Shown piece by piece: positions 6,001 to 59,577 of a stretch of DNA of 64,000 nt. Each line of letters opens with the position of its first letter. Positions within the stretch are counted from its first letter, which is position 1. Location: the NCBI GenBank assembly GCA_032622095.1, contig CP136063.1, positions 9,775,814 through 9,839,813 of the forward strand, read 5' to 3'. The position numbers and the translations under genes were made by a program. The stretch is from Siphonodentalium dalli. Its lineage: Eukaryota > Mollusca > Scaphopoda > Gadilida > Siphonodentaliidae. The notes beneath the pieces are model-generated. The model made no database searches. It saw only the letters and a program-made list of their open reading frames with translations, and was not told the origin of the DNA.

Positions 6001-9000
6001 AAAACAGTCACTGGGCATATAAATTCTGCAAATATTGTCATAACATCCAATGTTTCTGCCAAATTAAGGTGTCCTCATTGTTCTAATTAGACTAAAACAG
6101 TCACTGGTCATATAAATTCTTCAAATATTGTCATAACACTGATAACACCCCATGTTTCTGCCAAATTAAGGGGTGCCCATTGATCTAATTGGATTAAAAC
6201 AGTCACTGGGCATATAAATTTTGCAAATATTGTCATAATATCCCATGTTTCTGCTAAATTAAGGGGTCCCCATTGTTCTAATTGGACTAAAACAGTCACT
6301 GGGCATATCAATTCTGCAAATATTGTCATAACATCCCATGTTTCTGCCAAATTAAGGAGTAACCATTGTTCTAATTGGACTAAAACAGTCACTGTGCATA
6401 TCAATTCTGCAAATATTGTCATAACACTGATAACACCCCATGTTTCTGCCAAATTAAGGGGTGCCCATTGATCTAATTGGATTAAAACAGTCACTGGGCA
6501 TATAAATTTTGCAAATATTGTCATAACATCATATGTTTCTGCCTAATTAAGGGGTCTCCATTGTTCTAATTGGATTAAAACAGTTACTGGGCATATCAAT
6601 TCTGCAAATATTGTCATAACATCCCATGTTTTTGCCAAATTAAGGACTCCCCTTTGTTCTAATTGGACTAAAACAGTCACTGGGCATATAAATTCTGCAA
6701 ATATTGTCATAACATCACATGTTTCTGCCAAATTAAGGGGTCTCCATTGTTCTAATTGGATTAAAACAGTCACTCTCGGGGCATATCAATTCTGCAAATA
6801 TTGTCATAACATCCCATGTTTTTGCCAAATTAAGGACTCCCCATTGTTCTAATTGGACTAAAACAGTCACTGGGCATATAAATTCTGCAAATATTGTCAT
6901 AACATCACATGTTTCTGCTAAAGTAAGGGGTCCCCATTGTTCTAATTGGATTAAAACAGTCACTTGACGTACATGTATAAATTCTGCAAATGTTGTCATA
7001 ACATCCCATGTTTCTGCCAAATTAAGGTGTCCTCGTTGTACTAATTAGACTAAAGCAGTCACTGGGCATATACATTCTGCAAATATTGTCATAACATCAC
7101 ATGTTTCGGCCAAATTAAGGGGTCCCCATTGTTCTAATTGGACTAAAACAGTCACTGGGCATATAAATTCTGCAAATATTGTTATAGCATCCCATGTTTC
7201 TGCCAAATTAAGGTGTCCTCATTGTTCTAATTAGACTAAAACAGTCACTGGGCATATAAGTTATGCAAATATTGTCATAACATCCCATGTTTCTGCCAAA
7301 TTAAGGGTCCCCATTGTTCTAATTGGACTAAAAAAGTCACTGGGCATATAAATTATGCAAATATTGTCATAACATCCCATGTTTCTGCCAAATTAAGGGG
7401 TCCCCATTCTTCTAATGGGATTAAGACAGTCACTGTGCATATCAATTCTGCAAATATTGTCATAACACCCCATGTTTCTGCCAAATTAAGGGGTGCCCAT
7501 TGATCTAATTGGAATAAAACAGTCACTGGGCATATCAATTCTGCAAATATTGTCATAACATCACATGTTTCTGCCAACTTAAGGGGTCTACATTGCTCTA
7601 ATTGGATTAAAACAGTCACTGGGCATATACATTTTTGCAAATATTGTCATAATATCCCATGTTTCTGCTAAATTAAGGGGTCCCCATTGTTCTAATTGGA
7701 TTAAAACAGTCAATGGGCATATACATTCTTCAAATATTGTCATAACATCTCATCTTTCTGCCAAATTAAGGTGTCACCATTGATCTAATTGGACTAAAAC
7801 AGTCACTGGGCATATATACATTCTGCAAATATCGTCATAACATCACATGTTTCTGCCAAATTAAGGGCTCTCCATTGTTCTAATTGGACTAAAACAGTCA
7901 CTGGGCATATAAATTCTGCAAATATTGTCATAACATCCAATGTTTCTGCCAAATTAAGTTGTCCTCATTGTTCTAATTAGACTAAAACAGTCACTGGGCA
8001 TATATATTCTGCAAATATTGTCATAACATCCCATGTTTCTGCCAAATTAAGGGGTAACCATTGTTCTAATTGGACTAAAACAGTCACTGGGCATATCAAT
8101 TCTGCAAATATTGTCATAACATCCCATGTTTCTGCCAAATTAAGGGGTAACTATTGTTCTAATTGGACTAAAACAGTCACTGTGCATATCAATTCTGCAA
8201 ATATTGTCATAACACTGATAACACCCCATGTTTCTGCCAAATAAGGGTTGCCCATTGATCTAATTGGATTAAAACAGTCACTGGGCATATAAATTTTTGC
8301 AAATATTGTCATAATATCCCATGTTTCTGCTAAATTAAGGGGTCCCCATTGTTCTAATTGGATTAAAACAGTCACTGGACGTACATGTATACATTCTGCA
8401 AATGTTGTCATAACATCCCATGTTTCTGCCAAATTAAGGTGTCCTCATTGTTCTAATTAGACTAAAACAGTCACCGGGCATATAAATTCTGCAAATATTG
8501 TCATATCATCCCATATTTCTGCCAAATTAAGGGGTCCCCATTCTTCTAATGGGATTAAGACAGTCACTGTGCATATCAATTCTGCAAATATTGTCATAAC
8601 ACCCCATGTTTCTGCCAAATTAAGGGGTCCCAATTGATCTAATTGGAATAAAACAGTCACTGGGCATATCAATCCTGCAAATATTGTCATAACATTACAT
8701 GTTTCTGCCAAATTAAGGGGTCCCCATTGTTCTAATTGGACTAAAACAGTCACTGGGCATATAAATTCTGCAAATATTGTCATAACATCAGATAACATCC
8801 CATGTTTCGGCCAAATTAATGGGTCCCCATTGTTCTAATTGGACTAAAACAGTCATTGGGCATATTAATTCTGCAAATATTATCATAACATCACATGTTT
8901 CTGCTAAATTAAGGGGTCCCCATTGTTCTAATTTGATTAAAACAGTCACTGGGCATATAAATTCTGCAAATATTGTCATAGCATCCCATGTTTCTGCCAA

Positions 9001-11819: not shown

Positions 11820-12490
11820 ACGACCAATGTTGACACATAATGCATCGCGACTGATATAAATTAGTAAAGTGTAATGACAAATGTTGAAAAAAATGCATCT
11901 CGACTGTACTGTTGCAACAATGCTATAAAGGGGGGGGGGTCAGGATCTGAATTATCTCTATCTCTAATAATTTATGGACTTCTATAGAAGTACAATACAA
12001 AAAATAAATACAATACAATAAAATATCTACATAAGGAGACTATACCGATGTTACAAATAAATGAATTATGCAGGGGTTGGGATGGATATATGGAGAAATG
12101 GGGGTTAATTCAGATGAACTGATATAAATTATTAGAGCGATAACGACCAATGTTGACACATATTGCATTGCGACTGAGCTGTCGCGCCAAGGCTATACGA
12201 TAGGGGGGGGGGTCGGAATCTGAATTATCTCTATCTCTATAGAAAGGAATAGCAATTGATGTACATACATGTATATAGTAATATATACAAATTATGTACG
12301 TAACAGTTAAGACGACTATACCGATGATGGGGTGGGCTATATAGAAAAATAGGGGTTCATACTGTGAATCGATATAAATTAATAAAGCGGTAATGACAAA
12401 TGTTGAACTATAATGCATCTCGACTGTACTGTTTCAACAATGGTATATAATGGGGGGGGGGGGAGTCAGGATCAGCACCCCCCCCCAAAA
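11820..12490 (+). repeat. three diverged tandem units, each with a G tract
   Basis: Similar blocks start near 11820, 12140 and 12375. Each carries AATGTTGA, an AATGCAT segment, CGACTG, a run of 9 to 13 G and then a GTC(A/G)G segment; the first two continue into GAATTATCTCTATCTCTA. A C-run (12478-12487) follows the third block. No coding potential is evident. Confidence 0.7.
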
Positions 12491-19591: not shown

Positions 19592-19676
19592 CTCAGGGGG
19601 CGTGTCTACCGTAACGCCATCCGGGGAAATCGGAAGCGATGTATACTTTAATAACTGAATGGGAGAATTATTTCAG

Positions 19677-19829
19677 GTGTTGGTTAAAGTGGCAGCATGT
19701 GGTGTAAACCCTGTCGACACGTACATCAGAACAGGAACATATGCGAGGAAGCCTCAACTACCATACATTCCAGGGTTAGATGCTGCTGGCACTGTACATC
19801 AAATCGGCCCAAATGTTACCAAATTCAAG
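19677..19829 (+). CDS. CRYZ: CRYZ-like exon (N-terminal GroES-like segment)
   Basis: The exon begins after the acceptor AATTATTTCAG and ends at AAG/GTAAAT, giving 51 codons in phase 0 at both ends. It reads [20 protein letters not shown] and continues through [17 protein letters not shown], the signature of the CRYZ N-terminal domain: the CGVNP motif, and PYIPG before the glycine-rich turn. The frame has no defect. Its last 30 bp or so, including the splice donor, are repeated several times just downstream. Confidence 0.85.
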
Positions 19830-19992
19830 GTAAATCAGCCCCAATATTACCAAATTAAAGGTAAATCAGCCCAAATGATACCAAATTCAAGGCAAATTGG
19901 CTCAAATGTTACCAAATTCAAGACAAATTGGCTCAAATGTTACCAAATTCAAGGTAAATTGGACCCAATATTACCAAATTCAAGGTGAATCT
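19803..19992 (+). repeat. tandem repeat of an exon end plus its splice donor (about 6 copies)
   Basis: The exon end and donor (CCAAATGTTACCAAATTCAA followed by GGTAAAT) are followed by about five diverged copies of the same roughly 27-30 bp block. Each has CCAA(A)TNTTACCAAATT followed by AAGGTAAAT, AAGGCAAAT, AAGACAAAT or AAGGTGAAT. Three copies besides the original keep a usable GT donor after AAG. The first copy overlaps coding sequence; the rest are intronic. Confidence 0.85.
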
Positions 19993-25145: not shown

Positions 25146-25205
25146 CCCAAAGCCATATTTATTTACCCTCAACTAGGGTATGGGATCAACGGATCCCGTC
25201 TCGTA

Positions 25206-27458
25206 GTGGTGGCCTTCACTGGCCCGAAGAAACAAGAGTCTCGGGTTCCTATCAACAATCAGTCTGATGATTTCGCCCAGTACGATGGCGACCGACGTTC
25301 TCGCCGGTTGTATCGCAACACATACCGCGCCAATTCTAATGCCGAGGTTTCAAGGAGGCGGCATGGAGGGGCAAATAGGGCTACAAGCCCAGTTGATTTC
25401 GACTTGGAACAGGATTTTGGTAATCTTCGCGTTGATCGTAACTCTCGACCATCACGGGGTCGCGATAGTAGAAATTGCGACCAGACACAGCGACGCGATA
25501 GATCACATGTTCATCATTCTCGTAGTGGTCGGCAACATAGCCCATGCAGTAAGCAGGCTCTGGAAAATCAAGGGATGCGACAATCAAATAATGCCCAACC
25601 CAATCAATGTGGCCAACAAAACAGTGGGCGACGAGTTCCGGATACACGTGATTTCAGGGATGATCTCGTACAGGGTGGGTTTCCACGGGGACAGTCTCAG
25701 TCCCGTGACAATCATTCAAATAGGCGACCCAGATATAGAGACCGGGAGGGGTCGGCTAAAAATACCTGTGATAGGTTTCCACGTGGACAGCCTCAGTCCT
25801 GTGACATTCATTCAAATAGGCGACCCAGATATAGAGTTCGGGATGGGTCAGATGATGATGATCATTATAATGGGTTTCGCCGTGTCCGGTCTCCATCCGT
25901 TGATGACCATACAAATAGGCGTCCCCGAAATAGAAATCGCGACGACTATGATAATCGCGTCGATTCAGATTTTGAGGACCGTCCACCAGAAAGACAGGCC
26001 CGATTTTATGGAAGTAGTCACCGAGACAATAATGAGAATCATTGGGATCAGGAAAGGAGTCGGCCTGGCCCAGCCTTTCATATGGGCCGGGATCCGCAAT
26101 ATAACAGATTAAACGGTAACAATCCTTTAGATGCAAACAGCAATAATAGGGATGCTAGACCACGACAGGCTCCAAGAGTTCCCAACACTTTGGAATACGA
26201 TGGCAGCCAAAGCTGGCAGCCCTCTCAATTTCAGGAATTATTTCTAAATCAGTTAGATAAATACAATTTCCGCACACAAGATGAAGAAGTACGTTATTTG
26301 GGAAACTGTCTATATGGATGGGCCAAAAATTGGTTTGTTGAAATATTGGACAGTGAGCCCTCAATAGGGGTGGATGATTTGTTGGTTGCGTTACAGTGGG
26401 AATCTTTACAAAGGGGTGCCTCCCGAAATAACTCCAAATGCAGCAATAGGGATTATGGCTCGTGGGTTGCCTCTGATAGTTACCTTTCAGAATCGGATCA
26501 GTCATACAGTTCCAATGAGAATTACTCGAATGTCAGTCACGAGTTTGATTACAACATAAATACAAGCTGGGACATTGACTATGATTTGTCCCGTCGGTAT
26601 ATTAATTATTCCACTGCCGTCTGTGAAAATGCAGACTGGAAAATAACTTCGGATGACCAAGAGTATTTTGACAATGAAACTTCTGTGTCGGATTCAGTAT
26701 TGAAATCACAGCAGTTTGAGAATTATGTGTACACATTTTCTGAGGGAGCATCAAATAAATATGTGAGGCCAAAACACAGGGCTCATAAGAAATTGGAAGC
26801 ACATCAGTATACGATTGGTGCCGGTACTAGTACTTGCCAAACGCCTTCTTGTGATCCTGGTGACTCGATGGGCGACTATAGGTCTGCCCGGTTGAACAAA
26901 TCGACCAAACTAGCAGATCCCAGATTTTGTAATCTGGCACAGTATAAAAGTACCGGTAGTAAATCTAATTGCAATGTTGTTGATGTACAGAATCAAAATG
27001 CAAAAGGCTCATCCTCTGGGTACTTGCCTCCTGAATCATCATGCAAGGGTGCTTTTCAATTGAGTGCTCAATACAATCATCCTGTGTTCACTTCCGAATC
27101 AAATTCTGGGAATATTTTTCCCACTAATCAACTGACAAAGCTTGATACAGTTAACGTCAGCTCACAAGACAATTCATTTGGCCCTTGCCATGTGAGCACA
27201 GTGGAAAATAGGCAAATTTCTCTTTCCTATGAACACCACTTGAACACAATGGAATCGTCACAGTCGTCACCCAATGAATGTGTGAATGTTCCCGTTAACC
27301 CAGTGTGTCAGAACAATTCAAATGCACTTGAGTCACAAAGCGAAATGGGCGTGTTGAATGACCGCACGTCTCATGATTATGGGAGTTTTGATTCCCAATT
27401 TCATGTGAGTGAGAATTCAGTTACGCCCGGTTCAGCTTCTGGTGACGACCCGAGATAA
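25206..27458 (+). CDS. Gag-like protein of a retroelement, about 750 codons
   Basis: The frame is open from 25146 to the stop at 27456-27458. The position given here, 25206, is a GTG; the first in-frame ATG is at 25575, so the true start is uncertain and may lie in an upstream exon. Residues 1-330 are Arg/Asp/Ser-rich and disordered, with near-repeats such as HSNRRPRYR. At about 335-405 is a capsid-like segment: LEYDGSQSWQ, then LDKYNFRTQDEEVRYLGNCL, then YGWAKNWF. The pattern of YDG, W, an acidic segment, L..CL.G.A..W fits the Ty3/Gypsy-type retrotransposon Gag capsid. The remainder is Ser/Asn-rich. No CCHC zinc knuckle, protease, reverse transcriptase or integrase is visible here or downstream. 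It may be a Gag-only element or a domesticated Gag gene. Confidence 0.6.
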   Translation: MVAFTGPKKQESRVPINNQSDDFAQYDGDRRSRRLYRNTYRANSNAEVSRRRHGGANRATSPVDFDLEQDFGNLRVDRNSRPSRGRDSRNCDQTQRRDRSHVHHSRSGRQHSPCSKQALENQGMRQSNNAQPNQCGQQNSGRRVPDTRDFRDDLVQGGFPRGQSQSRDNHSNRRPRYRDREGSAKNTCDRFPRGQPQSCDIHSNRRPRYRVRDGSDDDDHYNGFRRVRSPSVDDHTNRRPRNRNRDDYDNRVDSDFEDRPPERQARFYGSSHRDNNENHWDQERSRPGPAFHMGRDPQYNRLNGNNPLDANSNNRDARPRQAPRVPNTLEYDGSQSWQPSQFQELFLNQLDKYNFRTQDEEVRYLGNCLYGWAKNWFVEILDSEPSIGVDDLLVALQWESLQRGASRNNSKCSNRDYGSWVASDSYLSESDQSYSSNENYSNVSHEFDYNINTSWDIDYDLSRRYINYSTAVCENADWKITSDDQEYFDNETSVSDSVLKSQQFENYVYTFSEGASNKYVRPKHRAHKKLEAHQYTIGAGTSTCQTPSCDPGDSMGDYRSARLNKSTKLADPRFCNLAQYKSTGSKSNCNVVDVQNQNAKGSSSGYLPPESSCKGAFQLSAQYNHPVFTSESNSGNIFPTNQLTKLDTVNVSSQDNSFGPCHVSTVENRQISLSYEHHLNTMESSQSSPNECVNVPVNPVCQNNSNALESQSEMGVLNDRTSHDYGSFDSQFHVSENSVTPGSASGDDPR

Positions 27459-38289: not shown

Positions 38290-39327
38290 CTGTTAACACA
38301 CGCATGTTCGAAACTTCGGAAAACGTTCTTTTCTATAGCGCGGAAAACAAACACATCTTCACTGACACCCTCGTCACTGCGTGAGATTCTTAGAACTGTA
38401 GTTCTACCCAAGGCTTTGTATGGATGTGAGTTATTTCATCTGGAATATGCATCGAGCCTCCCCATCATGGAAAGGTCACTCCGCACATGTGTTAAGAGTA
38501 TTCAGACTCTCCCAAGAAGGGCTAGCACGAGGCTATCGCTTGGTCTACTCGGATTGATGCCAATAGAACAACAAATCCACATCAGAAAACTATGCTTCAT
38601 AGGTAACCTCATTCACCTACCCATTCATCACCAAATTCCGCTCAAACTGTTTCTACTGAAGGCTCACCAACAACGTCTTTTTAATAGACCTACATCTGGA
38701 TTCGTTCACGACATCTTCCAGCTTCTCATTCAGTATGGCCTCATCCACTACCTATTCGAATTCATGGACGAAGGGACCTTTCCTCAGAAAGATGCTTGGA
38801 ATAAATTAGCAAAAAAGTATGTGATGAACTCTTATTCTAACATATGGCTATCAGCAGTTACATCTGACCCGTACCTGAAAGTTCTTTCCATGACACATCG
38901 CAACCCGCTTATTCAATGGAGATTATGGGACCAATTGCAGTGTATTGGAGCCAAACACTCTGGAAAATATATGAATATGGTCCGACTGCTAAACAGAACC
39001 ACATTCTTCAACAACTCTATATGTGCACTGTGCTCCGGAAAGTACGACAATGAACTAATGCACATCATGTTCTCCTGTCAGTCTTACATGTTAATGACTG
39101 CAAGGAATCAATACTGGGAATTTATTCTCAACCATTTCGGCATTCAGACATTCCTGCTAATGTTTAATCTATCTCCGGACGATTTATTTGCGTTATTTTT
39201 AGGTTCTGCACTCCACCACCTGTTAATAGTTTTACCGTCGTACCAGCTGGATCAAATAATATACTCCGCAGCCACATTTCTGTTATCTGCAAGCATCTCA
39301 CTGAGAGGAAATCGTGAAGGACGCTGA
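38290..39327 (+). mobile_element. LINE ORF2, 5'-truncated C-terminal part
   Basis: The frame is open from 38290 to the stop at 39325-39327 (first ATG 38416) and includes KLRKTFFSIARKTNTSSLTP and LREILRTVVLPKALYGCELF, the post-reverse-transcriptase segment typical of LINE ORF2 proteins. Downstream is a C-terminal zinc-binding-like cluster, CALCSGKYDNELMHIMFSC, as in many Jockey/CR1/I-type elements. The palm motifs, including YADD, and the endonuclease lie upstream and are missing. No internal stops or shifts are seen in about 345 codons, so this copy is young. Clade cannot be settled by eye. Confidence 0.8.
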
Positions 39328-44834: not shown

Positions 44835-45517
44835 TCAGACGGTAGTTGCATGGTGATTTCCACCGGCTGACTCCGTTCCCGGATAGGGTGGAGGAGGGTA
44901 TGAAGGAATAGAATCTAAATCATCCGCCCGCCGAGAGGTACTTCGATTATTTACACGCGACGGTTGTCTCTGGTTGTGCGGCGGTTGTGGCTGGTCACGC
45001 GATCGTTGTGGATTGTCACGTGATGGTTGTGGATTGTCACGCGATCGTTGTGGCTGGTCACGCGATCGTTGTGGCTGGTCGCGCGATCGTTGTGGCTGGT
45101 CACGTGATGGTTGTGGATGGTCACGCGATCGTTGTGGCTGATCACGCGATGACTCTGGCTGGTCACGCGATCGTGCATGAAGACTGGTGCGTGATGTTTG
45201 TGGCTGGTCACGTGATGGTTGTGGGTGGTCACGTGATGGTTGAGGTTGGTCACGCTGAGATCGCGGCGGATCGACGTCAGCCGTTCGCCTCTCAGAATGT
45301 GGACGTAATAAGGGCTGGTTCGCCTCTTCCGGTGGCACTCTAACTTGCAGTCGAGCAGGTGTATTATGGAAATCAGATGAATTGTTATTTTGTCGCTCCG
45401 TATTCATGCGCTCAGTTTCGTCTGGCGATTGTCGATTTCGCTGCGACTTGTGTTCATTGCCAGGATGGTGTGTGCTGTCTGGACATTTATACTCAACATT
45501 GCGACTACCTGCAGTTT
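44835..45517 (-). CDS. last exon: cytoplasmic tail of a repeat-rich membrane protein
   Basis: On the minus strand the acceptor ATTTCAG precedes AA ACT GCA, so the exon starts with two bases that complete the G left by the transmembrane exon to GAA (Glu). It runs 226 codons to TGA at 44835-44837. The tail begins TAGSRNVEYKCPDST, is highly charged, then carries about 13 copies of a 7-residue SRDQPQR-type repeat (21 bp; variants SRDHPQP, SRDNPQP). It ends SIPSYPPPPYPG and HHATTV. PPPY is a WW-domain ligand and the terminal T-T-V fits a class I PDZ ligand; both are family knowledge applied by motif. The tail would be intracellular. A longer reading into the intron is open but not supported by the splice phase. 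No named family is recognised. Confidence 0.75.
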
Positions 45518-47790
45518 CTGAAATGATACACATGTGTAACGTTATACGTCGCAATGCCCTGTAGTTTTTGAAAGTAAACGGACTATATACACTGACAAAA
45601 CCGATTCGGATTGGCATGTTTAACTTTGAGTGTAAGTGTTTATTTTCTATACACCGCGTATAGATAGTAAACATATCGTTTAGATTTTGTGTGATGTTTA
45701 TTGCAATACGTTTAAGAATATGGTACTTATATTGCAATGTATCAGGACGGATCGCATGTTATTAGACTGGGTTTTGTGAAGTATATATAACACACATATA
45801 TAATCTCAATATTTCATGAGGCGATGTAACATTCAAACACCGATTGTTTGTGTGGAAATAAACGTGGCGTTTAGGTTTCAGTCAAATACATAGGAGAACA
45901 TTCGATGACGTCACAGAACAATTTATTTAGCTGGTGGACAAACCAAAGCGAGTCTCGTAGAGTTAGTTTTGCTGATTTAGTTTTAACAAACAAGTGTATA
46001 TACCTTTGTTTTTAATTGGCACACATCAATAATTTGGAGATGAGTGTCGCGGGATAGATGCCTTTACAAACAAAACATATTTTCCAAATTGGTTGAGATA
46101 TCCTATTATCTAGATATCATAACGTATATAGCCACATAAGACGGTAAAATATATATGTGACCCGCCATATCAAATCCAGTCGTAAGTCGGGATTTGTTTT
46201 ACCCTGTGCCAATGCATTCTCTTATATATGCGAGTCGACCATAGGTCGCCTCGCATATATAAGAGAATGCATTGGCCTAACAATTTTTTATCATTTTTTT
46301 AAAATAAATGTTTCTTACAATTTGTAGGACATAAAATAAAAAAAATCCATTACCCTGCAGGGAGCTCCACACATATATAGAAGCATATAGAAGAGTGTCG
46401 TCTGCTCATGTTTATCTGGGGCTCTGTATGGGTGAAATTCTGTATTTTACTAGTGATTTTGTACTTTGCTGAATCCGGCAACTCCCGCATTCGTGATATA
46501 GGCTCCGAGATTTACTTAAATCAAACTTAGTTCTACTGACTGTCGATGATACGGGGTTATTTGCATTGAAAATTGCCCATAGGTGATACATCTACAATGC
46601 ATATATGTTGATGTAGATATTCGGGAAATGTAGATTATTAAGGATTTACAATTGCAATTGGTGAACAAACGCTCTTCAGAATTTCCTCATTTAGCTTTGC
46701 TTAATAGCAAACACTCTGATTTCTGCGTTTACAAGCAGGTTTTAATGCATACAACATGGAGCAGGGAATTTTAAACATATAAGAAGATGCACTAATAGGT
46801 ATCAATACAGATCGTGTCTGTCAACATAACGACAGTTGTAACTTTATCTGGATATATAGTGTCATGTAATAAGTGACCCGAGCACCACCGGGAACCCAGC
46901 AAGTTTATTATAATTTAGGCAATACCCACCATGAAATTATTATTTTTGTCCATCGAAATAAATTAGCTATGTTTTTTCCAGATATACCTGAATATACTGT
47001 CGCGAACATGGACTCAACGTGGAAACGTACGCGGATGACACGCAAATTTCCGATTTTGTCCCCCCCCCCATAATGGCCTGTCGTCTTTAATAAGAACAGT
47101 GGAACCTTGTGTCTCTGACGTCTGATGTCTCACAGCTTGTAAGCATGAACCATTCGAAATTAGAAGTTTGAACATCGGTGGATGTGAAATTGAGCCCAAA
47201 ACTTGTGCGAAACATCACGGTGTAAACATTTCTAGTTCAGGATCGCGTTTGAAGAGACGATTAAACAGTGGACGCCCAAGTACAACACATTTCCCATACC
47301 ATATTAATTGACCGTATGCGCCTTATTCGCATTCGACTTAACAATCCCTGCGGCGACAACGATAGCTTACTGTAATATTGTCAAGATTGCACTATTTTAA
47401 TGCGCTGTTCGTGGGAAGTTCGCACGAACAACTAAGTCGTCTGCATCGTCTATATAACTCAGTCCAAACTCCAGGCAGAGTTATCTCCCATTGCTCCGCT
47501 GAGATACCACTGCCATAAGGACATTAATTGGTAAGGAATTCTTACGTGTTTTTAGTTCTTATGTTTAGGATTAAAATTGTCTATGTCTGGCTCAGTTCAT
47601 ATTGTTCTTATCAATACCGAAAGAATTACCATTATTGAAAACTTTAAAACAAATTTGGTTTTCAAAACAAGATAATAGGTGAATAAATAGTAGTAAATAC
47701 AGTTCCGCGACGATATGTAAAAATAGATTTATCGTCTGCAAAGTACACTCATTGTGGCAGTGATATATCGCAGCGATAGCGTAGAGGGCG
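45518..47790. other. intron with MITE fragments
   Basis: It holds a broken piggyBac-like MITE at about 46201-46290 (CCTGTGCCAATGCATTCTCT, complete first palindrome, no termini). Another repeat at 46352-46440 (CCTGCAGGGAGCTCCACACA, TGTCGTCTGCT, TCTGGGGCTCTGTATGGG) is related to 17826-17905 and to the 92-bp array near the right edge. No exon is recognised. Confidence 0.6.
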
Positions 47791-48163
47791 CTGTATGGAG
47801 TTTTGAACTCAGTCGCGAGGATTTTAGCGCATGTTCCGAAATGCACCCACACTTCTCAAATTTTGAAAAACCAACATTGGGTCCCAGTGCGCGCACGAAT
47901 TGAATTTAAGTTAGCAACGTTCTGCTCTCGTTACTTTCACTTCTCTGCTCCAGCATACATCTCGGACCTTCTTACGTCGTATGTACCAGGCCGTGATAAC
48001 CTCTACTTTCCAAGGAAAAAAACAGCTTCTGGCTGCTCCCGTGGATAAATATAAGAACATTGAACGTCGTATGTTCACATACGCCACAACAAGTGTATGG
48101 AACTCCATCCCGTCGACATCTTCAAGATTTACCCACACACAACTAGCCGTACACTGCAACTAA
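47791..48163 (+). mobile_element. LINE (CR1/L2-type) C-terminal remnant with frameshift
   Basis: The plus strand reads VARILAHVPKCTHTSQILKN, then QHWVPVRARIEFKLATF and PAYISDLLTSYVPGRDNLYF, which fits the ILKxLHWLPVxxRIxFK...P.Y.SDLL..Y.P pattern of CR1/L2-like ORF2 ends. The reading then shifts frame into LLAAPVDKYKNI, then TTSVWNSIPS and a stop at 48161-48163. Everything upstream of this tail is lost. It sits antisense in the intron of the minus-strand gene. Confidence 0.8.
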
Positions 48164-48686
48164 TGTGGGGAACCGGATAAACTTAGTTGGTTCTACAAAC
48201 TGTCCCACTGGCGGAACCAAGAGAGTTGGTTCTTCACAGTCGAAGAACAAATTGATTCTTGTTCTTTACCTATTTATTGAAGAACCAAAACAAAAAATCA
48301 ATTGGTTCTTGATTGACGAAGAACCAATGGTTGACGAAGAACCAAATAAGAAATATTGTTGACATCATTGAAGATTCAACTGAAGAATCAAAATTGTTAC
48401 CAATAACCAATATTTTGGTTCTTCAACTGTGTTACAATTACTACAATTAACAAACTGTTCCAGTGGCGGAACCAACTAAACTATTTGGTTCTTCGCAAGA
48501 GCCAGTTGGTTCACATAAATGTTCTTGGTTCTTCATGAATTACAATGGAGATAAATGTACCATGTTTCGTTGTACATTCTGGGATTCGAGCATGAATGTT
48601 CTTGGTTCACATAAATGTTCTTGGTTCTTCATGAATTACAATGGAGATAAATGTACCATGTTTCGTTGTACATTCTGGGATTCATG
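48164..48686 (+). repeat. GGTTCTTC-rich repeats and a 95-bp direct duplication
   Basis: GGTTCTTC or its complement GAAGAACC occurs more than ten times in both orientations. A segment GGTTCACATAAATGTTCTTG to TGTACATTCTGGGATTC is duplicated at about 48509 and 48604. No coding signal. Confidence 0.75.
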
Positions 48687-49068
48687 TCATAGGTCGCCTC
48701 GCATATATAAGAAAATGCATTGGCTTAACACATATTAAAAATGATAAAATTGTCAAAGAATGTAGAAAAATATTATAAAAATTGTTAAAAAATGTAAGAA
48801 CAAATTATAAAATTGTTAAAAAATGTAAGAAAAAATGTTTTTTAAGCCAATGCATTCTCTTATATATGCGAGGCTACCTATGTTCGACTCGCATATATAA
48901 GAGAATGCATTGGCACAGGGCATAACTGTAACCATCACAATGTGGTCGATGAACCGGTTCCAATGATATCCATATTTGTATGGTGTTATTGAGACAGACC
49001 GAAGATATTTTAGGCTGTTGAAGCTTTATTTGGGAGTTTTTGGCCGTTTTGTTGGGTAAAGGATTTAA
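48687..49068 (-). mobile_element. piggyBac-like MITE, inverted copy with one end lost
   Basis: The right end is GTTTTGTTGGGTAAAGGA followed by TTTAA, a one-base variant of the family terminus, with TTAA at 49065-49068. Going left it shows GGCCGTTTTG, the unique body (CTGTTGAAGCTTTATTTGGG, AATGATATCCATATTTGTAT), a full palindrome, an A-rich core with repeated GTTAAAAAATGTAAGAA, and half of the other palindrome, where it stops at ATAGGTCGCC. The far terminal repeat is absent. Confidence 0.85.
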
Positions 49069-49178
49069 TGGGACAGCCGGGTATTCCCGTGGTTGTCCGG
49101 ATACTTCCGTGATGTCGGTTATTCCCGTGATGCGACTTGCTGCTGGCTGCTTATAAAATCAGATACTCAAAAACTCAC

Positions 49179-49291
49179 CCCTGTTTGATCCTCGATATCT
49201 GCGAATAACAAAGACAGCGACGATCACTAACACAATCAGCAACAGTGAGCCGAGAACACCTCCAACAATGGCTGCCGTCTGTCCAGCTCCA
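49179..49291 (-). CDS. transmembrane exon of the repeat-rich membrane protein
   Basis: On the minus strand the acceptor AATTCACAG precedes a T that completes AG from the upstream exon to AGT (Ser). It is followed by GAGQTAAIVGGVLGSLLLIV, then LVIVAVFVIRRYRGSNR and one G before the donor GTGAGT. This gives 113 bp (1 + 37 codons + 1). The roughly 23-residue hydrophobic run with Gly at its start and RRYR directly after is a single-pass type I transmembrane segment with its stop-transfer signal. The alternative longer reading (through MFDLNLQ) lacks support. It sits between a MITE and the 33-bp array. Confidence 0.8.
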
Positions 49292-49371
49292 CTGTGAATT
49301 ATAGGAAGATGATATCGTATATAAGGAGCAATGATCTTTAACACCTCCAACTGCAAGTTAAGGTCGAACAT

Positions 49372-50206
49372 TTGGTGTCCATACGTTTAGTATGGTAGGG
49401 GTAGTTGGTGTTCATACGTTTAGTATGGTAGGGTTAGTTGGTGTCCATACGTTTAGTATGGCACGGGTTAGTTGGTGTCCATACGTTTAGTATGGTAGGG
49501 TTAGTTGGTGTTCATACGTTTAGTATGGCACGGGTTAGTTGGTGTCCATACGTTTAGTATGGTAGGGGTAGTTGGTGTTCATACGTTTAGTATGGTAGGG
49601 GTTAGTTGGTGTCCATACGTTTAGTATGGCACGGGTTAGTTGGTGTCCATACGTTTAGTATGGTAGGGGTAGTTGGTGTTCATACGTTTAGTATGGCACG
49701 GGTTAGTTGGTGTCCATACGTTTAGTATGGTAGGGGTAGTTGGTGTTCATACGTTTAGTATGGTAGGGGTAGTTGGTGTCCATACGTTTAGTATGGCACG
49801 GGTTAGTTGGTGTTCATACGTTTAGTATGGTAGGGGTAGTTGGTGTTCATACGTTTAGTATGGCACGGGTTAGTTGGTGTCCATACGTTTAGTATGGTAG
49901 GGGTAGTTGGTGTTCATACGTTTAGTATGGTAGGGGTAGTTGGTGTCCATACGTTTAGTATGGTAGGGGTAGGTGGTGTCCATACGTTTAGTACGGCACG
50001 GGTTAGTTGGTGTCCATACGTTTAGTATGGTAGGGTTAGTTGGTGTCCATACGTTTAGTACGACACGGGTTAGTTGGTGTTCATACGTTTAGTACGGCAC
50101 GGGTTAGTTGGTGTCCATACGTTTAGTATGGTAGGGGTAGTTGGTGTTCATACGTTTAGTATGGTAGGGGTTAGTTGGTGTCCATACGTTTAGTATGGCA
50201 CGGGTT
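49372..50206 (+). repeat. 33-34 bp minisatellite (about 25 units)
   Basis: The unit is GTTGGTGTCCATACGTTTAG followed by TATGGTAGGGGTA, or by TATGGCACGGGTTA (34 bp). The two unit types alternate in blocks, with GTCC/GTTC as a second variable site. It lies in the intron between the transmembrane exon and the WxxW exon of the minus-strand gene. Confidence 0.95.
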
Positions 50207-50640
50207 AGCGACTTGCAACTGATGACGATCTTATTGGCTTTGTCTCTTTTCCTTCTCTGGTGATTTAATTTATTTTAATTATAATTTTTAACTTTTCGGT
50301 TATAATAATTCATATATTTTGGTGCGTACGTTCGGAAATTATTTTCCAATTTTTGCAAAACCGCTCCGGGCCACTGCTGTCCGCCTAAATTTATGACAAG
50401 TGAACGATGAAACATGTATCTGCACAACATTGGGTCACTGTTCCCTTATCTGTCATATATACATATGCTTTGTAGATTCACTCTTCTTTCTCTTGTCATC
50501 TACATGTATACAGTTGGTTTCAACTTCACTTTGTGATAAAATGTATATGACTAATTGGTTTCAGGCCAGTTTTCTTTCAGCTTATCCTAATATGACAAAT
50601 CAGAAAGCTTTCGAGCCGTCAGCCAGCATCTCATTATGGC
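50207..50640. other. intron sequence, no gene seen
   Basis: Unique AT-rich sequence between two minisatellites. An 88-codon plus-strand frame with a hydrophobic stretch runs into the start of the 50-bp array and has no supporting feature. Confidence 0.4.
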
Positions 50641-53172
50641 TGTTAACTGTCATCCCGGGAAACTAGGTCTAATCTTAACACTACATGGTGTGTTAACTGT
50701 CATCCCGGGATGCTAGGTCTAATCTTAACCCTACATGGTGTGCTAACTGTCATCCCGGGATGCTAGGTCTAATCTTAACCCTACATGGTGTGTTTACTGT
50801 CATCCCGGGATGCTAGGTCTAATCTTAACCCTACATGGTGTGTTTACTGTCATCCCGGGATGCTAGGTATAATCTTAACCCTACATGGTGTGTTAACTGT
50901 CATCCCGGGATGCTAGGTCTAATCTTAACCCTACATGGTGTGTTAACTGTCATCCCGGGATGCTAGGTCTAATCTTAACCCTACATGGTGTGTTAACTGT
51001 CATCCCGGGAAACTAGGTCTAATCTTAACACTACATGGTGTGTTAACTGTCATCCCGGGATGCTAGGTCTAATCTTAACCCTACATGGTGTGCTAACTGT
51101 CATCCCGGGATGCTAGGTCTAATCTTAACCCTACATGGTGTGTTTACTGTCATCCCGGGATGCTAGGTCTAATCTTAACCCTACATGGTGTGTTAACTGT
51201 CATCCCGGGATGCTAGGTCTAATCTTAACCCTACATGGTGTGTTAACTGTCATCCCGGGATGCTAGGTCTAATCTTAACCCTACATGGTGTGTTAACTGT
51301 CATCCCGGGATGATAGGTCTAATCTTAACCCTACATGGTGTGTTAACTGTCATCCCGGGATGCTAGGTCTAATCTTAACCCTACATGGTGTGTTTACTGT
51401 CATCCCGGGATGCTAGGTCTAATCTTAACCCTACATGGTGTGTTTACTGTCATCCCGGGATGCTAGGTCTAATCTTAACCCTACATGGTGTGTTTACTGT
51501 CATCCCGGGATGCTAGGTATAATCTTAACCCTACATGGTGTGTTAACTGTCATCCCGGGATGCTAGGTCTAATCTTAACCCTACATGGTGTGTTTACTGT
51601 CATCCCGGGATGCTAGGTGTGATTTTAACCCTACATGGTGTGTTTACTGTCATCCCGGGGTGCTAGGTGTGATTTTAACCCTACATGGTGTGTTTACTGT
51701 CATCCCGGGGTGCTAGGTGTAATTTTAACCCTACATGGTGTGTTTACTGTCATCCCGGGGTGCTAGGTGTGATTTTAACCCTACATGGTGTGTTTACTGT
51801 CATCCCGGAGTGCTAGGTGTGATTTTAACCCTACATGGTGTGTTTACTGTCATCCCGGGATGCTAGGTGTGATTTTAACCCTACATGGTGTGTTTACTGT
51901 CATCCCGGGGTGTTAGGTGTAATTTTAACCCTACATGGTGTGTTTACTGTCATCCCGGGGTGCTATGTGTGATTTTAACCCTACATGGTGTGTTTACTGT
52001 CATCCCGGGATGCTAGGTGAGATTTTAACCCTACATGATGTGTTTACTGTCATCCCGGGGTGCTGGGTGTGATTTTAACCCTACATGGTGTGTTTACTGT
52101 CATCCCGGGGTGCTGGGTGTGATTTTAACCCTACATGGTGTGTTTACTGTCATCCCGGGGTGCTAGGTGTGATTTTAACCCTACATGGTGTGTTTACTGT
52201 CATCCCGGGGTGCTAGGTGTGATCTTAACCCTACATGGTGTGTTTACTGTCATCCCGGGATGCTAGGTCTAATCTTAACCCTACATGGTGTGTTTACTGT
52301 CATCCCGGGATGCTAGGTCTAATCTTAACCCTACATGGTGTTTTAACTGTCATCCCGGGATGCTAGGTCTAATCTTAACCCTACATGGTGTGTTTACTGT
52401 CATCCCGGGATGCTAGGTGTGATTTTAACCCTACATGGTGTGTTTACTGTCATCCCGGGGTGCTAGGTGTGATTTTAACCCTACATGGTGTGTTTACTGT
52501 CATCCCGGGGTGCTAGGTGTAATTTTAACCCTACATGGTGTGTTTACTGTCATCCCGGGGTGCTAGGTGTGATTTTAACCCTACATGGTGTGTTTACTGT
52601 CATCCCGGAGTGCTAGGTGTGATTTTAACCCTACATGGTGTGTTTACTGTCATCCCGGGATGCTAGGTGTGATTTTAACCCTACATGGTGTGTTTACTGT
52701 CATCCCGGGGTGTTAGGTGTAATTTTAACCCTACATGGTGTGTTTACTGTCATCCCGGGGTGCTATGTGTGATTTTAACCCTACATGGTGTGTTTACTGT
52801 CATCCCGGGATGCTAGGTGTGATTTTAACCCTACATGGTGTGTTTACTGTCATCCCGGGATGCTAGGTGTGATTTTAACCCTACATGATGTGTTTACTGT
52901 CATCCCGGGGTGCTGGGTGTGATTTTAACCCTACATGGTGTGTTTACTGTCATCCCGGGGTGCTGGGTGTGATTTTAACCCTACATGGTGTGTTTACTGT
53001 CATCCCGGGGTGCTGGGTGTGATTTTAACCCTACATGGTGTGTTTACTGTCATCCCGGGGTGCTAGGTGTGATTTTAACCCTACATGGTGTGTTTACTGT
53101 CATCCCGGGGTGCTAGGTGTGATTTTAACCCTACATGGTGTGTTTACTGTCATCCCGGGGTGCTAGGTGTTA
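50641..53172 (+). repeat. 50-bp minisatellite (about 50 units) with higher-order duplication
   Basis: The unit TGTTAACTGTCATCCCGGGA, TGCTAGGTCTAATCTTAACC, CTACATGGTG is exactly 50 bp. Two main types exist: GGTCTAATCTT (50641-51590 and 52255-52380) and GGTGTGATTTT (51600-52250 and 52400-53170). Private variants such as CATCCCGGAG (51801, 52601), TGTTAGGTGTAA (51911, 52711) and TGCTATGTGT (51961, 52761) recur at exactly 800 bp, so a 16-unit block was duplicated. A smaller 350-bp (7-unit) repeat is marked by CCCGGGAAACTAGG at about 50655 and 51005. Confidence 0.95.
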
Positions 53173-53184
53173 ATCCTACAGGAT

Positions 53185-54606
53185 GTGTTAACTGGTCAGA
53201 CACCCAACTGGGCAAAACTCGAAAATTTCGGAGTTAAAGGGAAAATACTCGATGTAACCAAAAGTTTATACACAAACCTGAAAATGACTGTTATGACCGA
53301 TGATTTCTCTGGGTTCTTCCCCAGTCAAACAGGAGTAAAACAAGGTGATGAATTATCCCCCCCTGCTATTTTCACTATATGTGACCGATATGGGGGATCA
53401 TCTTAAAAATAGCGGCTGCACAGGAATAGACTTGGCAAAGATTAATAAGACAAACACTGGGGTGTATCTAAAACTATTGCTCCTGATATATGCTGATGAC
53501 ACTACTTTTATCTGACACACCCCGCGGTTTGCATAATGCTCTTCATCACTTCTCCGCATATTTTGATACCTGGAAACTTGTTATAAACACATCGAAAACA
53601 ATAATAATGATATTCGGAAGTAAACCGAAATACAAAAGGCCTTTATCATTCAAAATAAATGAACAAATCTTGAAATAATCGACACCTTTAAATACCTGGG
53701 AACTTGGTTCACTAGAAATGCCACATTTAATAAGGACATAAACACGATATGCAAAGCTGCAAAACAAGAAATGTATGCTCTTTTGAATAAAACTCGCAAA
53801 TACAAGCTTTCATATGACAGTGTCCTTGAAGTATACGAGAAATCGATAGCTCCGGTTATGACTTATGGGTCTGAGATATGGGATTTTGAAAACACCACAT
53901 GTCTTGAAAAACTAGAAATCTGGTTCCTAAAATTCGCGCTAAATCTAAAAAAATCCACCCCAACCCGTTCGTATATGGAGAAACTGGCATATACCCAATA
54001 GCATCAGTAATAAAAAATAGATATCTTAATTACTGGGGGAAAATAATGAATATGTCGAGTAGGCGACTCCCATCGATTCTATACAGCATCATGCACACAC
54101 TGTTCATGGGCGCCAATGCACAAATCAAATGGATCAAACACACGCACGATTCACTGAATTACCTTGGCCCATCAAACTTGTGGATAAATAAGTCAATACC
54201 CGAGAGCAAATCGTTCAATAATTTGATTAAAGGGCGTATATATTATGCATACCTCCAATAATGGAGGGGAAGAATAACATCAACGACCAAGGGAGCCTTT
54301 TATAGAATAATTAAAACTGATTTCGGGAGAGAAACATATTTCACTATTGAAAATCAAGCAGCAGTAGCGCGCCTAACTAAATTTAGAACCAGAAAGCACA
54401 TACTACCCATTGAAACCGGATCATGGTACAAACAAAGCTATTCCGACAGAAAATGCACGTTATGCAACCAAGAGCTAGGCGACGAATATCACATTGTACT
54501 GAAATGTCAGAGTCTTGTAGATATTAGAAAAAAATTATTTGAAACCGTTCTATTATACTCAGCCAAACACACACAAATTAAATGCACTCTTCACGACAAC
54601 AAATAG
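53185..54606 (+). mobile_element. LINE ORF2 remnant with reverse transcriptase motifs, multiply frameshifted
   Basis: It joins the last 50-bp unit directly. Read across frames it shows LWAKLENFGVKG-like start (here WAKLENFGVKGKILDV), TGVKQGDELSP (palm motif), a frame change, then LLLIYADDTTFI with the YADD catalytic pair, a second change, HFSAYFDTWKLVINTSKT, a third change, and DTFKYLGTWF. Later come PVMTYGSEIWDFE and a C-terminal CTLCNQELGDEYHIVLKC zinc-binding-like cluster. At least three frameshifts and two or more stops make it non-functional. Endonuclease and N-terminal RT parts are missing. It belongs to a different LINE family from 38290-39327. Confidence 0.88.
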
Positions 54607-54900
54607 AAAAACGATAACTAATATCGCAAACTTCCTGCACGAAGCCCAGCGTATCATGGGACCCCCCTGAGGCAAAATGTACCGGCTTATCTCATAATTC
54701 TTTACCACCTCACACGACCCCCGCCATTGACCACCCCATCCACCCCACCCTCGATATTACCATATGTGTATATATCTTTCGAGTTAGTATGCACCCTTCT
54801 ACTCAAATTGTATCGCATGCGCAACATTCTACTGCATTGAACATTATGTACTAATTATGTCTATTCTATGACGATCTGAGTTAAATTAAAATATCTATCT
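54607..54900 (+). other. probable 3' tail of the LINE remnant
   Basis: About 290 bp follow the last coding trace with CCACC-rich sequence and end in GTTAAATTAAAATATCTATC. No polyA tail or target duplication is clear. Confidence 0.35.
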
Positions 54901-54975
54901 CACTCACCACTTATTGGTTAACCATAAAACATGTAATACACGTGCGCTAAACACGGATATGTTTATGACTCCAAT

Positions 54976-55055
54976 AAATCGAGTATGGGAATAATACACA
55001 ACAAATCGAGTATGGGAATAATACACAATAAATCGAGTATGGGAATAATACAGTT
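54976..55055 (+). repeat. 27-bp tandem repeat (3 units)
   Basis: AAATCGAGTATGGGAATAAT followed by ACACAAC or ACACAAT is repeated three times; the last unit turns into ACAGTTAG. Confidence 0.85.
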
Positions 55056-55497
55056 AGATCTGTATCGCTACACCCACCACATTGGTACATGCAGTTAGTA
55101 GCTTCAATACTACCCCATGCAAACAAAAGAATCACTTACGAAATATTACAAATTCCTCATAAATTTGTAGAGTTATACTCACTGTCATTACGGTAACACT
55201 AGGGTTCGCGCAGCCACTTGACAAAATTGCCAATGGCAAAAATAATTCACATTTGGCAAAACATATTGTCATTTGGCAACATTTTGGAAAGTCACTTTTA
55301 ATTCCTCAGTAAAGTTGAAAATAACGGTCAATCAATACCGTTTATTTTAGGAAACTATTACAATATACTTATATTAGTGGTGTTTTGTAAAAGTTAACAC
55401 CTCCATTAAGACGCAGGTAATATCGAGGGGTGGAGCGATTATCCGTATTTAGTGTGATGGTGTTGTTTCATAGCTGCATGCAATCCTATTGTGACGT

Positions 55498-56095
55498 TCC
55501 TTCCTGATGAAGCAACCCTACTACCATTTTATTTTGATGTTCCCCTCTGATGAAGCAACCCTTCTACCATTTTATTTTGATGTTCCTTTCTGATGAAGCA
55601 ACCCTTCTACCATTTTATTTTGATGTTCCCCTCTGATGAAGCAACCCTTCTACCATTTTATTTTAATGTTCCCCTCTGATGAAGCATCCCTTCTACCATT
55701 TTATTTTGATGTTCCTTCCTGATGAAGTAACCCTTCTACCATTTTATTTTGATGTTCCTTCCTGATGAAGCAACCCTTCTACCATTTTATTTTGATGTTC
55801 CTTCCTGATGAAGCAACCCTTCTACCATTTTATTTTGATGTTCCTTCCTGATGAAGTAACCCTTCTACCATTTTATTTTGATGTTCCTTCCTGGTGAAGT
55901 AACCCTTCTACCATTTTATTTTGATGTTCCTTCCTGATGAAGCAACCCTTCTACCATTTTATTTTGATGTTCCTTTCTGATGAAGTAACCCTTCTACCAT
56001 TTTATTTTGATGTTCCTTCCTGATGAAGTAACCCTTCTACCATTTTATTTTGATGTTCCTTCCTGATGAAGCAACCCTTCTAACATTTTATTTTT
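55498..56095 (+). repeat. 43-bp minisatellite (about 14 units)
   Basis: The unit GATGTTCCTTCCTGATGAAG, CAACCCTTCTACCATTTTAT, TTT recurs at 43-bp spacing (GATGAAG at 55506, 55549, 55592). CAACCC/TAACCC and CCTTCC/CCCCTC are the main variants. Confidence 0.93.
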
Positions 56096-56147
56096 CGGTG
56101 ATTAGTTTATTGTATGATAAACCACAATATAAATGCGAGTATAATTA

Positions 56148-56538
56148 TTAACCCTTTACCCAACAAACCGGCCAAATAAAGCTTCAACAGCCTAAAATAT
56201 CTTCTGTCTGTCTCAATAGAACCAAACAAATATGGATATCATTGGAACCGGCTCCTTGACCACATTGTGATAGTTACAGTTATGCCCTGTGCCAATGCAT
56301 TCTCTTATATATGCGAGTCGACCATAGGTCGCCTCGCATATATAAGAGAATGCATTGGCCTAAAAAAAATCTTTTTTTTAACACTTTTTACCATTTTTTC
56401 TTACATTCTTTAACAATTTTATAATTTTTAATGTGTTAAGCCAATGCATTCTCTTATATATGCGAGGCGACCTATGGTCGACTCGCATATATAAGAGAAT
56501 GCATTGGCACAGGGCCGTTCTGTTGGGTAAAGGGTTAA
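56148..56538 (+). mobile_element. piggyBac-like MITE, complete copy A (about 391 bp with TTAA)
   Basis: TTAA 56148-56151, then CCCTTTACCCAACA; the right end is TGTTGGGTAAAGGG then TTAA 56535-56538. Inside are a left-only unique body of about 130 bp, palindrome 1 (CAATGCATTCTCTTATATAT to its mirror around GTCGACCATAGGTCGCC), a T-rich core, and palindrome 2, which is the reverse complement of palindrome 1. No transposase frame. TTAA targets and CCCT ends are hallmarks of piggyBac-type elements (family knowledge); assignment to that superfamily is inference. Confidence 0.92.
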
Positions 56539-56779
56539 CTAACTGCTTTCCTATGGATATCAGACGTCGTTCAAACCGCGAGTGTCGAAATATAAGACTC
56601 AATCAAGGTTGTAGCAAAACGATACTATCAGTGACAGCATTTGGCAAAATATATTTTCATTTGGAAAATTATTTGGCAAAAATAAATTTCGGTCCAGCGC
56701 GGACCCTGTGTATTAATTAACTTGCTAAACCTGTTTTGTTGAAATTTGACATAATGTATAGGGGAAACAAAGTAGCTAG

Positions 56780-56930
56780 GCAGTTAAGACTAGTTGGTGG
56801 ACATTATAGCAACTGTCTGTATTAATGCATCAATATATGGTGATGGAGTAAGCAAGACCTATAGTTGGTGGACATTATATCAACTGTCTGCACTGGTGCA
56901 TCAATATATGGTGATTATAATAACATTATT
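56780..56930 (+). repeat. 71-bp direct repeat (2 units)
   Basis: AGTTGGTGGACATTATA, CAACTGTCTG and GCATCAATATATGGTGAT occur twice, at about 56791 and 56862, with small differences between. Confidence 0.75.
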
Positions 56931-57095
56931 GGCGTTAATGATGAATTTCTTTTGAATCTAGATTCTTACGAAACATCTAATTCATGAAGTGGACATATGC
57001 CTTTTTTGATTCGCATCAAGCTAAACAATTATCCTGCCTATTGTTTGTTCACAAACACTTCCCCCGCGTTGATTCGTTGGCCAATATGTTCTTAC

Positions 57096-57715
57096 CTCGC
57101 ATTAGTGCTAGGTTTCCCAACCCGGGTCCGTGACTGACTACCGCTATTCGCATTCCACGCAGACCAAGACTGCGGCCTTTGTGTGTTGTAGCCATTTCCC
57201 CCGTTCCACTTGGTCCATGATGGCCGCGGTGTGTTGTTTTGTTTTCTCTGGTTCCACGAATTCCACGTAGGTTTGGGTGTGTTACGTTGACCTCCTGACC
57301 AGCCCGGCCGCTGTGTGTTGTATTGGTCCCTCGGCCGCTGTGTGTTGTATTGGTTCCTCGGTCGCTGTGTGTTGTATTGGTCCCTCGGTCGCTGTGTGTT
57401 GTATTGGTTGCTCGGTCGCTGTGTGTTGTATTGGTTCCTCGGTCGCTGTGTGTTGTATTGGTTCCATGATTTCCACGCAGGCCGCTGTGTATTCCCGCTA
57501 TTCCATCCGTTCCACGTTGGTGCCTGTGTGTTTCGCTGATTTCCTGCCCAGCTGGACCAACTCGGTTTCTGCGTGTATGACCGACCTCCATCATTCCATG
57601 CATTCCATGTAGGTTTCTGAGTGTTTGGGCGACCTCCACCATTCCAGTTACTCCATGTTGGTTGAGGTGTGTTCTGTTGGCCTGCTGTCCAACGTGACCA
57701 ATTTCGGGAGCTCAT
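57096..57715 (-). CDS. WxxW-repeat extracellular exon of the membrane protein
   Basis: On the minus strand the frame from 57715 (ATG; in-frame stop four codons upstream) gives 206 codons plus AG, ending at a strong donor AG/GTAAGA. The AG joins the T of the 49291 exon as Ser, so the phases agree. The sequence is built from NTQ(R/K)PTWxxWN units: nine WxxW motifs (WSRW, WSNW, WNAW, WSSW, WNGW, WKSW, WNSW, WTKW, WSAW), with six tandem NQYNTQRPR nonamers (27 bp) in the middle. WxxW is the acceptor motif for C-mannosylation in thrombospondin-type repeats; here it occurs without their cysteines. Placement before a transmembrane exon implies an extracellular, possibly matrix-binding, stalk. There is no signal peptide, so an upstream exon is expected and the ATG may be internal. 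Family unknown. Confidence 0.7.
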
Positions 57716-57837
57716 AACCCAGCTTTACAAATCCTTTATCCCCAACCACCCAACAAATCTCCTACGCTACTGTAACGATAAAATAACAAAGCAATGTGAC
57801 TATAAATTTTACTACGCATATTAAACAAGTAGCCGGA

Positions 57838-57943: not shown

Positions 57944-58680
57944 TATATGTGATAATAATGTGACATGTGTACAACGTGTTGACATAATGATGATGACCCG
58001 AAAATAGGTGACAGTCTACTGTATGCGTAAACGGCACCGAATACAGAAAACATCACAGACGAAGTACCCGACCTATATACATTGCTAAACTATCAATACC
58101 ATAATGTGTGTTATTCCTTCCGGTTCAATTTCCGCCACGTCCCGAATACATTCCGTCGTGTAAAAAACACACAAATGTGTCCGATATATAGCTATAGCCG
58201 TTCTATTAATAGCGATGATGTGTATTACACACTATACACAGACGTGGTGTATTGGTAGAATTGTGTCTAAGTCTACCACATCCCTTGTGTAAATGTCAAT
58301 TGTGTGTTTGAAACTGGACACCAAGACTGCATATGGAATGCTTGTTAAATTATCGTATTCATATAATGCATAATTCATTATGTGAGATATTATATATAAG
58401 TAAATACTCACTACCAAGAAATATAACTATAAACACAACACAACATATCGATCGCTGCCCACGAATAAACCCAGTCGTGCATATTATGAATGAATAGCTT
58501 CATTGTTAATGTTTTGATAGCGGCGTAGGGTTATGCAGGGACACACTATCTGTTTACTTTACATTCTATTCAAGTCGCCGAGACTAAATTTATCACATCA
58601 GTGGTACACGTATATATCTGTATGCTTAATGATTTGGGTGCAGCGAATCTGATTATTATCTATTCATGAAATATACAGAA
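57944..58680. other. no gene seen
   Basis: About 740 bp upstream of the WxxW exon on the minus strand. An upstream exon with a signal peptide would be expected here or further right, but none is recognised. Confidence 0.35.
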
Positions 58681-59449
58681 TTAAGGTAGATCTCGTCTGG
58701 GTAATATCATTAACATCACAACACACTTATTCGTGTAATGCACCTGTATTAAGGTAGATCTCGTCTGGGTAATATCATTAACATCACAACACACTTATTC
58801 GTGTAATGCACCTGTATTAAGGTAGATCTCGTCTGGGTAATATCATTAACATCACAACACACTTATTCGTGTAATGCACCGGTATTAAGGTAGATCTCGT
58901 CTGGGTAATATCATTAACATCACAACACACTTATTCGTGTAATGCACCTGTATTAAGGTAGATCTCGTCTGGGTAATATCATTAACATCACAACACACTT
59001 ATTCGTGTAATGCACCTGTATTAAGGTAGATCTCGTCTGGGTAATATCACTAACACCACAACACACTTATTCGTGTAATGCACCTGTATTAAGGTAGATC
59101 TCGTCTGGGTAATATCATTAACATCACAACACACTTATTCGTGTAATGCACCTGTATTAAGGTAGATCTCGTCTGGGTAATATCACTAACACCACAACAC
59201 ACTTATTCGTGTAATGCACCTGTATTAAGGTAGATCTCGTCTGGGTAATATCACTAACACCACAACACACTTATTCGTGTAATGCACCTGTATTAAGGTA
59301 GATCTCGTCTGGGTAATATCATTAACATCACAACACACTTATTCGTGTAATGCACCTGTATTAAGGTAGATCTCGTCTGGGTAATATCATTAACATCACA
59401 ACACACTTATTCGTGTAATGCACCTGTATTAAGGTAGATCTCGTCTGGT
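58681..59449 (+). repeat. 68-bp minisatellite (about 11 units)
   Basis: TTAAGGTAGATCTCGTCTGG, GTAATATCATTAACATCACA, ACACACTTATTCGTGTAATG, CACCTGTA is repeated almost perfectly; the only frequent change is CATTAACATC to CACTAACACC in three units. Low divergence points to recent amplification. Confidence 0.95.
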
Positions 59450-59577
59450 CAATGTCACTGACAAGAAAACCAATGTCAGAAATGGTAACGCGCTCAAGAT
59501 CATATATTATATACCCATGATTGTAATTATAGAATATAAAATATATTGGTTTCACGAATTACCAACTCATAATTCCG

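Follow-up and report, generated by a model that had tools for sequence, protein, structure and literature searches.

Three open segments lying far apart on the minus strand of a scaphopod genome raise the question of whether they are exons of one gene, and of what kind of membrane protein such a gene would encode. The window, the whole 64-kb stretch of DNA analysed here, corresponds to positions 9775814-9839813 of contig C3 in a 2.23-Gb genome of nine contigs.

Exon structure and splice junctions

Exon 1 (57096-57715, minus strand; 620 nt) starts with ATG, encodes a basic and presumably disordered block with nine WxxW motifs, and closes at the donor AG/GTAAGA. Exon 2 (49179-49291, minus; 113 nt), bounded by the acceptor TTCACAG and the donor GGTGAGT, encodes an SGAGQT linker, a transmembrane (TM) helix and the sequence RRYRGSNR. 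Exon 3 (44835-45517, minus; 683 nt) follows the acceptor ATCATTTCAG and encodes a cytosolic-type tail with the stop codon. When joined, the three exons form a single open frame of 471 amino acids with no internal stop, and both joins are in phase, AG plus T giving Ser and G plus AA giving Glu. Coordinates, splice dinucleotides and phases were re-derived from the sequence, and all agreed with those proposed in an earlier sequence-only reading of this DNA.

Since minisatellites with accidental long stop-free frames are widespread in this genome, several of them within the window, open frames by themselves are weak proof of a gene; exon 1 is open in another frame as well. The model exceeds chance because rare strong donors sit at the exon ends and a hydrophobic segment flanked by splice sites is unique. 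AGGTRAG donors are limited to two on the minus strand of the window, one lying exactly where the exon 1 frame closes (57096), and GGTGAGT is equally rare, with one of its two occurrences closing exon 2. No segment on the same strand other than that of exon 2 is strongly hydrophobic, and this one has an acceptor and a donor on its two sides. The locus has in-frame exons with consensus splice sites, as a spliced protein-coding gene does.

The 5' end of exon 1

A good acceptor at 57770 (TTTTATCGTTACAG/TAGCG) precedes exon 1 and leaves a 54-nt leader (57716-57769, minus), a probable 5' UTR. As this leader has stops in all frames and no ATG before 57715, and as both complete copies of the locus (see below) have an in-frame TAA 12 nt ahead of that ATG, the plain reading is that translation would start at 57715, directly with the WxxW block and with no signal peptide ahead. 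An upstream signal-peptide exon, for which the sequence-only reading proposed a search, was sought over about 26 kb and in the second complete copy, and did not come to light. The upstream segment common to both complete copies ends near 60836, and these shared 3 kb contained no usable candidate; none was convincing within the 26 kb upstream of exon 1 (57716 to 20 kb past the window end). Both complete copies conserve a hydrophobic mini-frame at 59503, MILSALPFLTLVFLSVTLT, which lacks an acceptable donor and whose phase is incompatible with exon 1; other hydrophobic ATG frames upstream were unsupported. Two acceptors within exon 1 were also rejected, AAAG/CTGGG being destroyed in the second copy (AAAT) and ATGAG/CTCC having a poor pyrimidine tract. 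Translations of intron read-through and of the 26 kb upstream gave no Pfam domain above cut-off. A distant 5' exon may still supply a signal peptide. The earlier assignment to type I is supported by the single TM helix with positive charges after it, and is tentative as regards the N-terminus, where the search over this range found no signal peptide.

Copies of the locus in the genome

Genome searches gave four copies in total, two complete and two truncated, and detected no further relatives, including more distant ones. The second complete copy (C3:8.372-8.383 Mb) has identical exon order, strand, splice sites, junctions and frames. The copy at C3:9.146-9.151 Mb lacks exon 1 and consists of exons 2 and 3, while that at C3:4.899 Mb retains most of exon 3 alone, the exon 3 acceptor being absent. 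Among the copies, the tail has kept its non-repetitive half and the C-terminal motifs. Judged from their sequences, the copies are segmental duplicates whose breakpoints fall within tandem arrays or close to them. The copy lacking exon 1 is probably orphaned, because it sits about 15 kb behind a frame that we take to be the start of an SLC5-type transporter from the way it reads (no match in Pfam). Low-complexity matches of exon 1 and of the tail elsewhere in the genome were set aside as unrelated minisatellite frames.

When the two complete copies were compared, exon 1 differed at 12 of 566 positions (2.1%) and the flanks at 70 of 1380 (5.1%; p=0.0027). Exon 3 was slightly slower than intron 2, a non-significant difference (p=0.05-0.40 depending on the pair). 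Exons 1 and 3 of the complete copies showed 12 nonsynonymous and 8 synonymous changes, which on such small counts (p=0.10 against neutral) is only suggestive of constraint, and the 12 changes in exon 1 were too few to tell its three reading frames apart. Changes private to the two truncated copies amounted to about 10 nonsynonymous to 1 synonymous (hand count from pairwise lists). Although the counts are small, this pattern speaks for two copies that are functional, or were so until recently, and for two in decay. Indels inside the exons were of 54 bp (exon 1) or 105 bp (tail) only, that is, whole codons and whole repeat units, and the proposal that both repeat blocks vary in length was borne out. 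Considering the fit of splice sites and phases, the second complete copy, the slower exon 1 and these whole-codon indels, we conclude that the three exons probably form a real gene in an animal-type genome, encoding a single-pass membrane protein.

Surrounding sequences

The first 11.6 kb of the window (1-11637) is a 93-bp satellite array. A 68-bp tandem array lies just upstream of the gene (58680-59448; 0.77 kb) and extends to about 13.8 kb in the second complete copy (C3:8.38-8.40 Mb). Palindromic MITE-like inverted-repeat elements whose ends resemble AACCCTTTACCCAACA and ATGCATTCTCTTATATATGCGAG were observed at 59.7-60.8, 56.2-56.5, 48.8, 46.2 and 34.0-34.3 kb. On the plus strand, the window carries an exon-like frame with an ADH_N domain of the quinone oxidoreductase type (19659-19988), the 3' part of which enters a 31-bp minisatellite; a 770-aa open frame rich in Arg, Ser and Asp with a gag-like stretch (25146-27458; no match in Pfam); and two frames resembling LINE retroelement remnants (38290-39327 and 53663-54606; no match in Pfam), the second inside intron 1. 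The minus-strand frame 12110-12433, in which a TM segment is followed by DPPPY, was considered as a second gene of like design and rejected as a dispersed repeat with 129 genome matches. Apparent homology of DNA upstream of the window to the third copy was ruled out as a dispersed 2.6-kb repeat (L022:3875-6510). This repeat has more than 50 matches over all nine contigs, mostly 90-99% identical, and some of them lie adjacent as direct or inverted pairs.

Organization of the predicted protein

The exon 1 block forms the N-terminal 206 residues. It is rich in Trp, Asn and Gln and lacks Cys, and its basic residues outnumber the acidic ones by 29 to 3. The nine WxxW motifs lie at residues 6, 21, 37, 53, 68, 81, 151, 167 and 184, with S, N or T at the +1 position in eight of them. 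Six 27-bp units, each coding for the 9-residue repeat NQYNTQRPR, were identified by TRF at 57305-57465 (minus), two more than in the second complete copy. An AlphaFold model of exon 1 gave a mean pLDDT of 46, which, with the weak single-sequence input, is consistent with disorder of the block. Hydropathy (KD19) reached a maximum of 3.19 at residue 218, within the TM segment AAIVGGVLGSLLLIVLVIVAVFVI (49204-49275, minus), and there was no other TM peak in the 471 residues. The tail carries a 21-bp array coding for the heptad SRDQPQR (44984-45255, minus; 12.8 copies, to which the truncated copy at C3:4.90 Mb adds five), followed by PPPY within YPPPPYPG (44883-44894, minus), a ligand motif of WW domains, and a terminal TTV (ATTV end; 44838-44846, minus) of the class I PDZ ligand pattern. 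Both motifs are kept in all four copies, which strengthens the roles that we infer for them from pattern. The counts of nine WxxW motifs, six 9-residue repeats, about 13 heptads and two adaptor-binding motifs, as well as the single clean TM segment followed by RRYR, were all as read earlier.

The sequon of DPY19 enzymes is WxxW with a small +1 residue (PMC12990085), and the predicted block fits it. By exon-wise PF10034 matches, at least four DPY19-type loci were detected in the genome: two neighbours in opposite orientation at C7:147.03-147.26 Mb, one at C4:291.80-291.85 Mb and one at C1:50.40-50.44 Mb. Because DPY19 genes are present, C-mannosylation of the WxxW tryptophans is possible.

Comparison with known proteins

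No Pfam profile reached its curated cut-off with the predicted protein, and the PDB yielded no relative, the sole match there (E=0.72, at the TM level) being rejected as chance. Thrombospondin type 1 repeat (TSR) proteins such as UNC5 carry WxxW sequons and are DPY19 substrates, and some are TM receptors. The present protein shares the sequons and the TM helix, but exon 1 has neither the six-Cys TSR fold nor a Pfam TSP_1 match. Syndecan-type molecules likewise combine a disordered ectodomain, a single TM helix and a PDZ-ligand tail, but the syndecan ectodomain is acidic where this one is basic, and the C-termini differ; the Pfam Syndecan profile scored 14.5 bits against a cut-off of 25.2, with similarity in the TM only. 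The protocadherin profile PF08374 also stayed below cut-off (19.4 versus 26.3 bits), matching only the TM and juxtamembrane parts.

The sequence-only reading over-stated how unusual WxxW arrays are outside thrombospondin domains, as precedents exist in a mussel and in a fungus. Pvfp-1 of Perna viridis is a repetitive animal protein with C-mannosylated Trp outside thrombospondin repeats (PMC4275877, PMC8433626). Judged by description, the resemblance is of kind only, since Pvfp-1 is a secreted byssal adhesive with threonine O-glycosylation, for which neither a TM helix nor a PPPY/PDZ tail is described (PMC4275877, PMC8433626). BAD-1 of Blastomyces is a heparin-binding surface adhesin with tandem repeats rich in WxxW (PMC3708853). 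Its repeat, however, is a Cys-bridged 17-residue WxxWxxW loop in a fungal protein with a signal peptide and an EGF-like anchor, whereas exon 1 has one WxxW per repeat and no Cys. As far as homology was compared through Pfam and the PDB, a WxxW block joined to a TM helix and a PPPY/PDZ tail is a combination new to us, and the locus appears to be a credible orphan gene whose design is predicted from its sequence.

Topology and possible function

By the positive-inside rule, positive charges flank a TM helix on its cytosolic side. Because RRYR directly follows the TM helix here, with few charges close before it, we favour the orientation N-out/C-in. PPPY and PDZ ligands are normally cytosolic, and with only one TM helix a cytosolic tail would also place the N-terminus outside. 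A 206-residue basic N-terminus without a signal is hard to translocate. A precedent is neuregulin-1, whose long N-terminus is extracellular although a typical signal peptide is missing (PMC4929465); its EGF and Ig domains are absent here, and the comparison is one of topology.

The best explanation overall, which we hold tentatively and with somewhat less than even confidence, is a three-exon orphan gene for a disordered, basic and Trp-rich surface adhesin of about 471 residues with a putatively mannosylated Trp block and a PPPY/PDZ tail. The TM helix would insert N-out/C-in as a signal anchor, or after a 5' exon yet to be found, and DPY19 enzymes would C-mannosylate the tryptophans in the ER. 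Once displayed on the cell, the basic Trp-rich block might attach to neighbouring cells or to acidic matrix, sulfated or otherwise. A sulfated matrix is the most natural guess, because in thrombospondin WxxW peptides with basic residues close by are heparin binders, and such peptides have been implicated in the attachment of BAD-1 to heparin (PMC3708853). In the cytosol, PPPY could recruit Nedd4-type (WW-domain) ubiquitin ligases and TTV could recruit PDZ scaffolds, so that the tail would link adhesion to turnover and anchoring.

Alternative explanations

The gene may be real and its WxxW block nonetheless cytosolic (N-in), or the protein may reside in an internal membrane; the block would then be a low-complexity interaction domain that is never C-mannosylated. 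The very basic N-terminus agrees with this, as do the first ATG after a strong acceptor, the in-frame stop upstream of it and the failure to find a signal peptide; RRYR behind the TM helix and the normally cytosolic nature of the tail motifs speak for N-out, and we regard the N-in arrangement as rather unlikely. Also unlikely, and somewhat more so, is that exons 2 and 3 belong to a gene with another 5' part, exon 1 being an alternative exon or part of another transcript. A distance of 7.8 kb does separate exon 1 from exon 2, the DNA there is rich in repeats and holds LINE-like remnants, and the copy at C3:9.146-9.151 Mb does without exon 1. That copy, however, looks orphaned, its private exon 3 changes being 4 nonsynonymous and 0 synonymous, and in both complete copies exon 1 ends in a near-perfect donor with the phase that exon 2 requires.

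Finally, the open frames could be by-products of minisatellites, or belong to a young and decaying family of duplicates with no functional gene. Stop-free minisatellites are indeed common in the genome, two frames of exon 1 are open, two of the four copies are broken and the signal from nonsynonymous and synonymous changes is weak. Agreement of splice signals and phases at both junctions, the slower divergence of exon 1 than of its flanks, and the retention of the non-repetitive half of the tail with its C-terminal motifs argue against it, and we consider the absence of a functional gene distinctly improbable. An elaborate form of the adhesin reading is a lineage-specific, membrane-tethered polymeric adhesin in which a disordered WxxW array, its repeat number variable between copies, is densely C-mannosylated, reaches the surface without a signal peptide and is linked to turnover machinery by the PPPY and PDZ motifs; this form is quite doubtful.

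Biological implications

Should the protein be expressed and surface-exposed, as we infer, it would offer a natural disordered substrate with nine C-mannosylation sequons in one chain, and would be useful for studying the role of C-mannose outside folded thrombospondin repeats. If the locus is merely a decaying duplicate, it is ordinary. The locus also illustrates how, in a genome laden with repeats, segmental duplication together with in-frame changes of minisatellites can create and later erode an orphan membrane protein rich in repeats.
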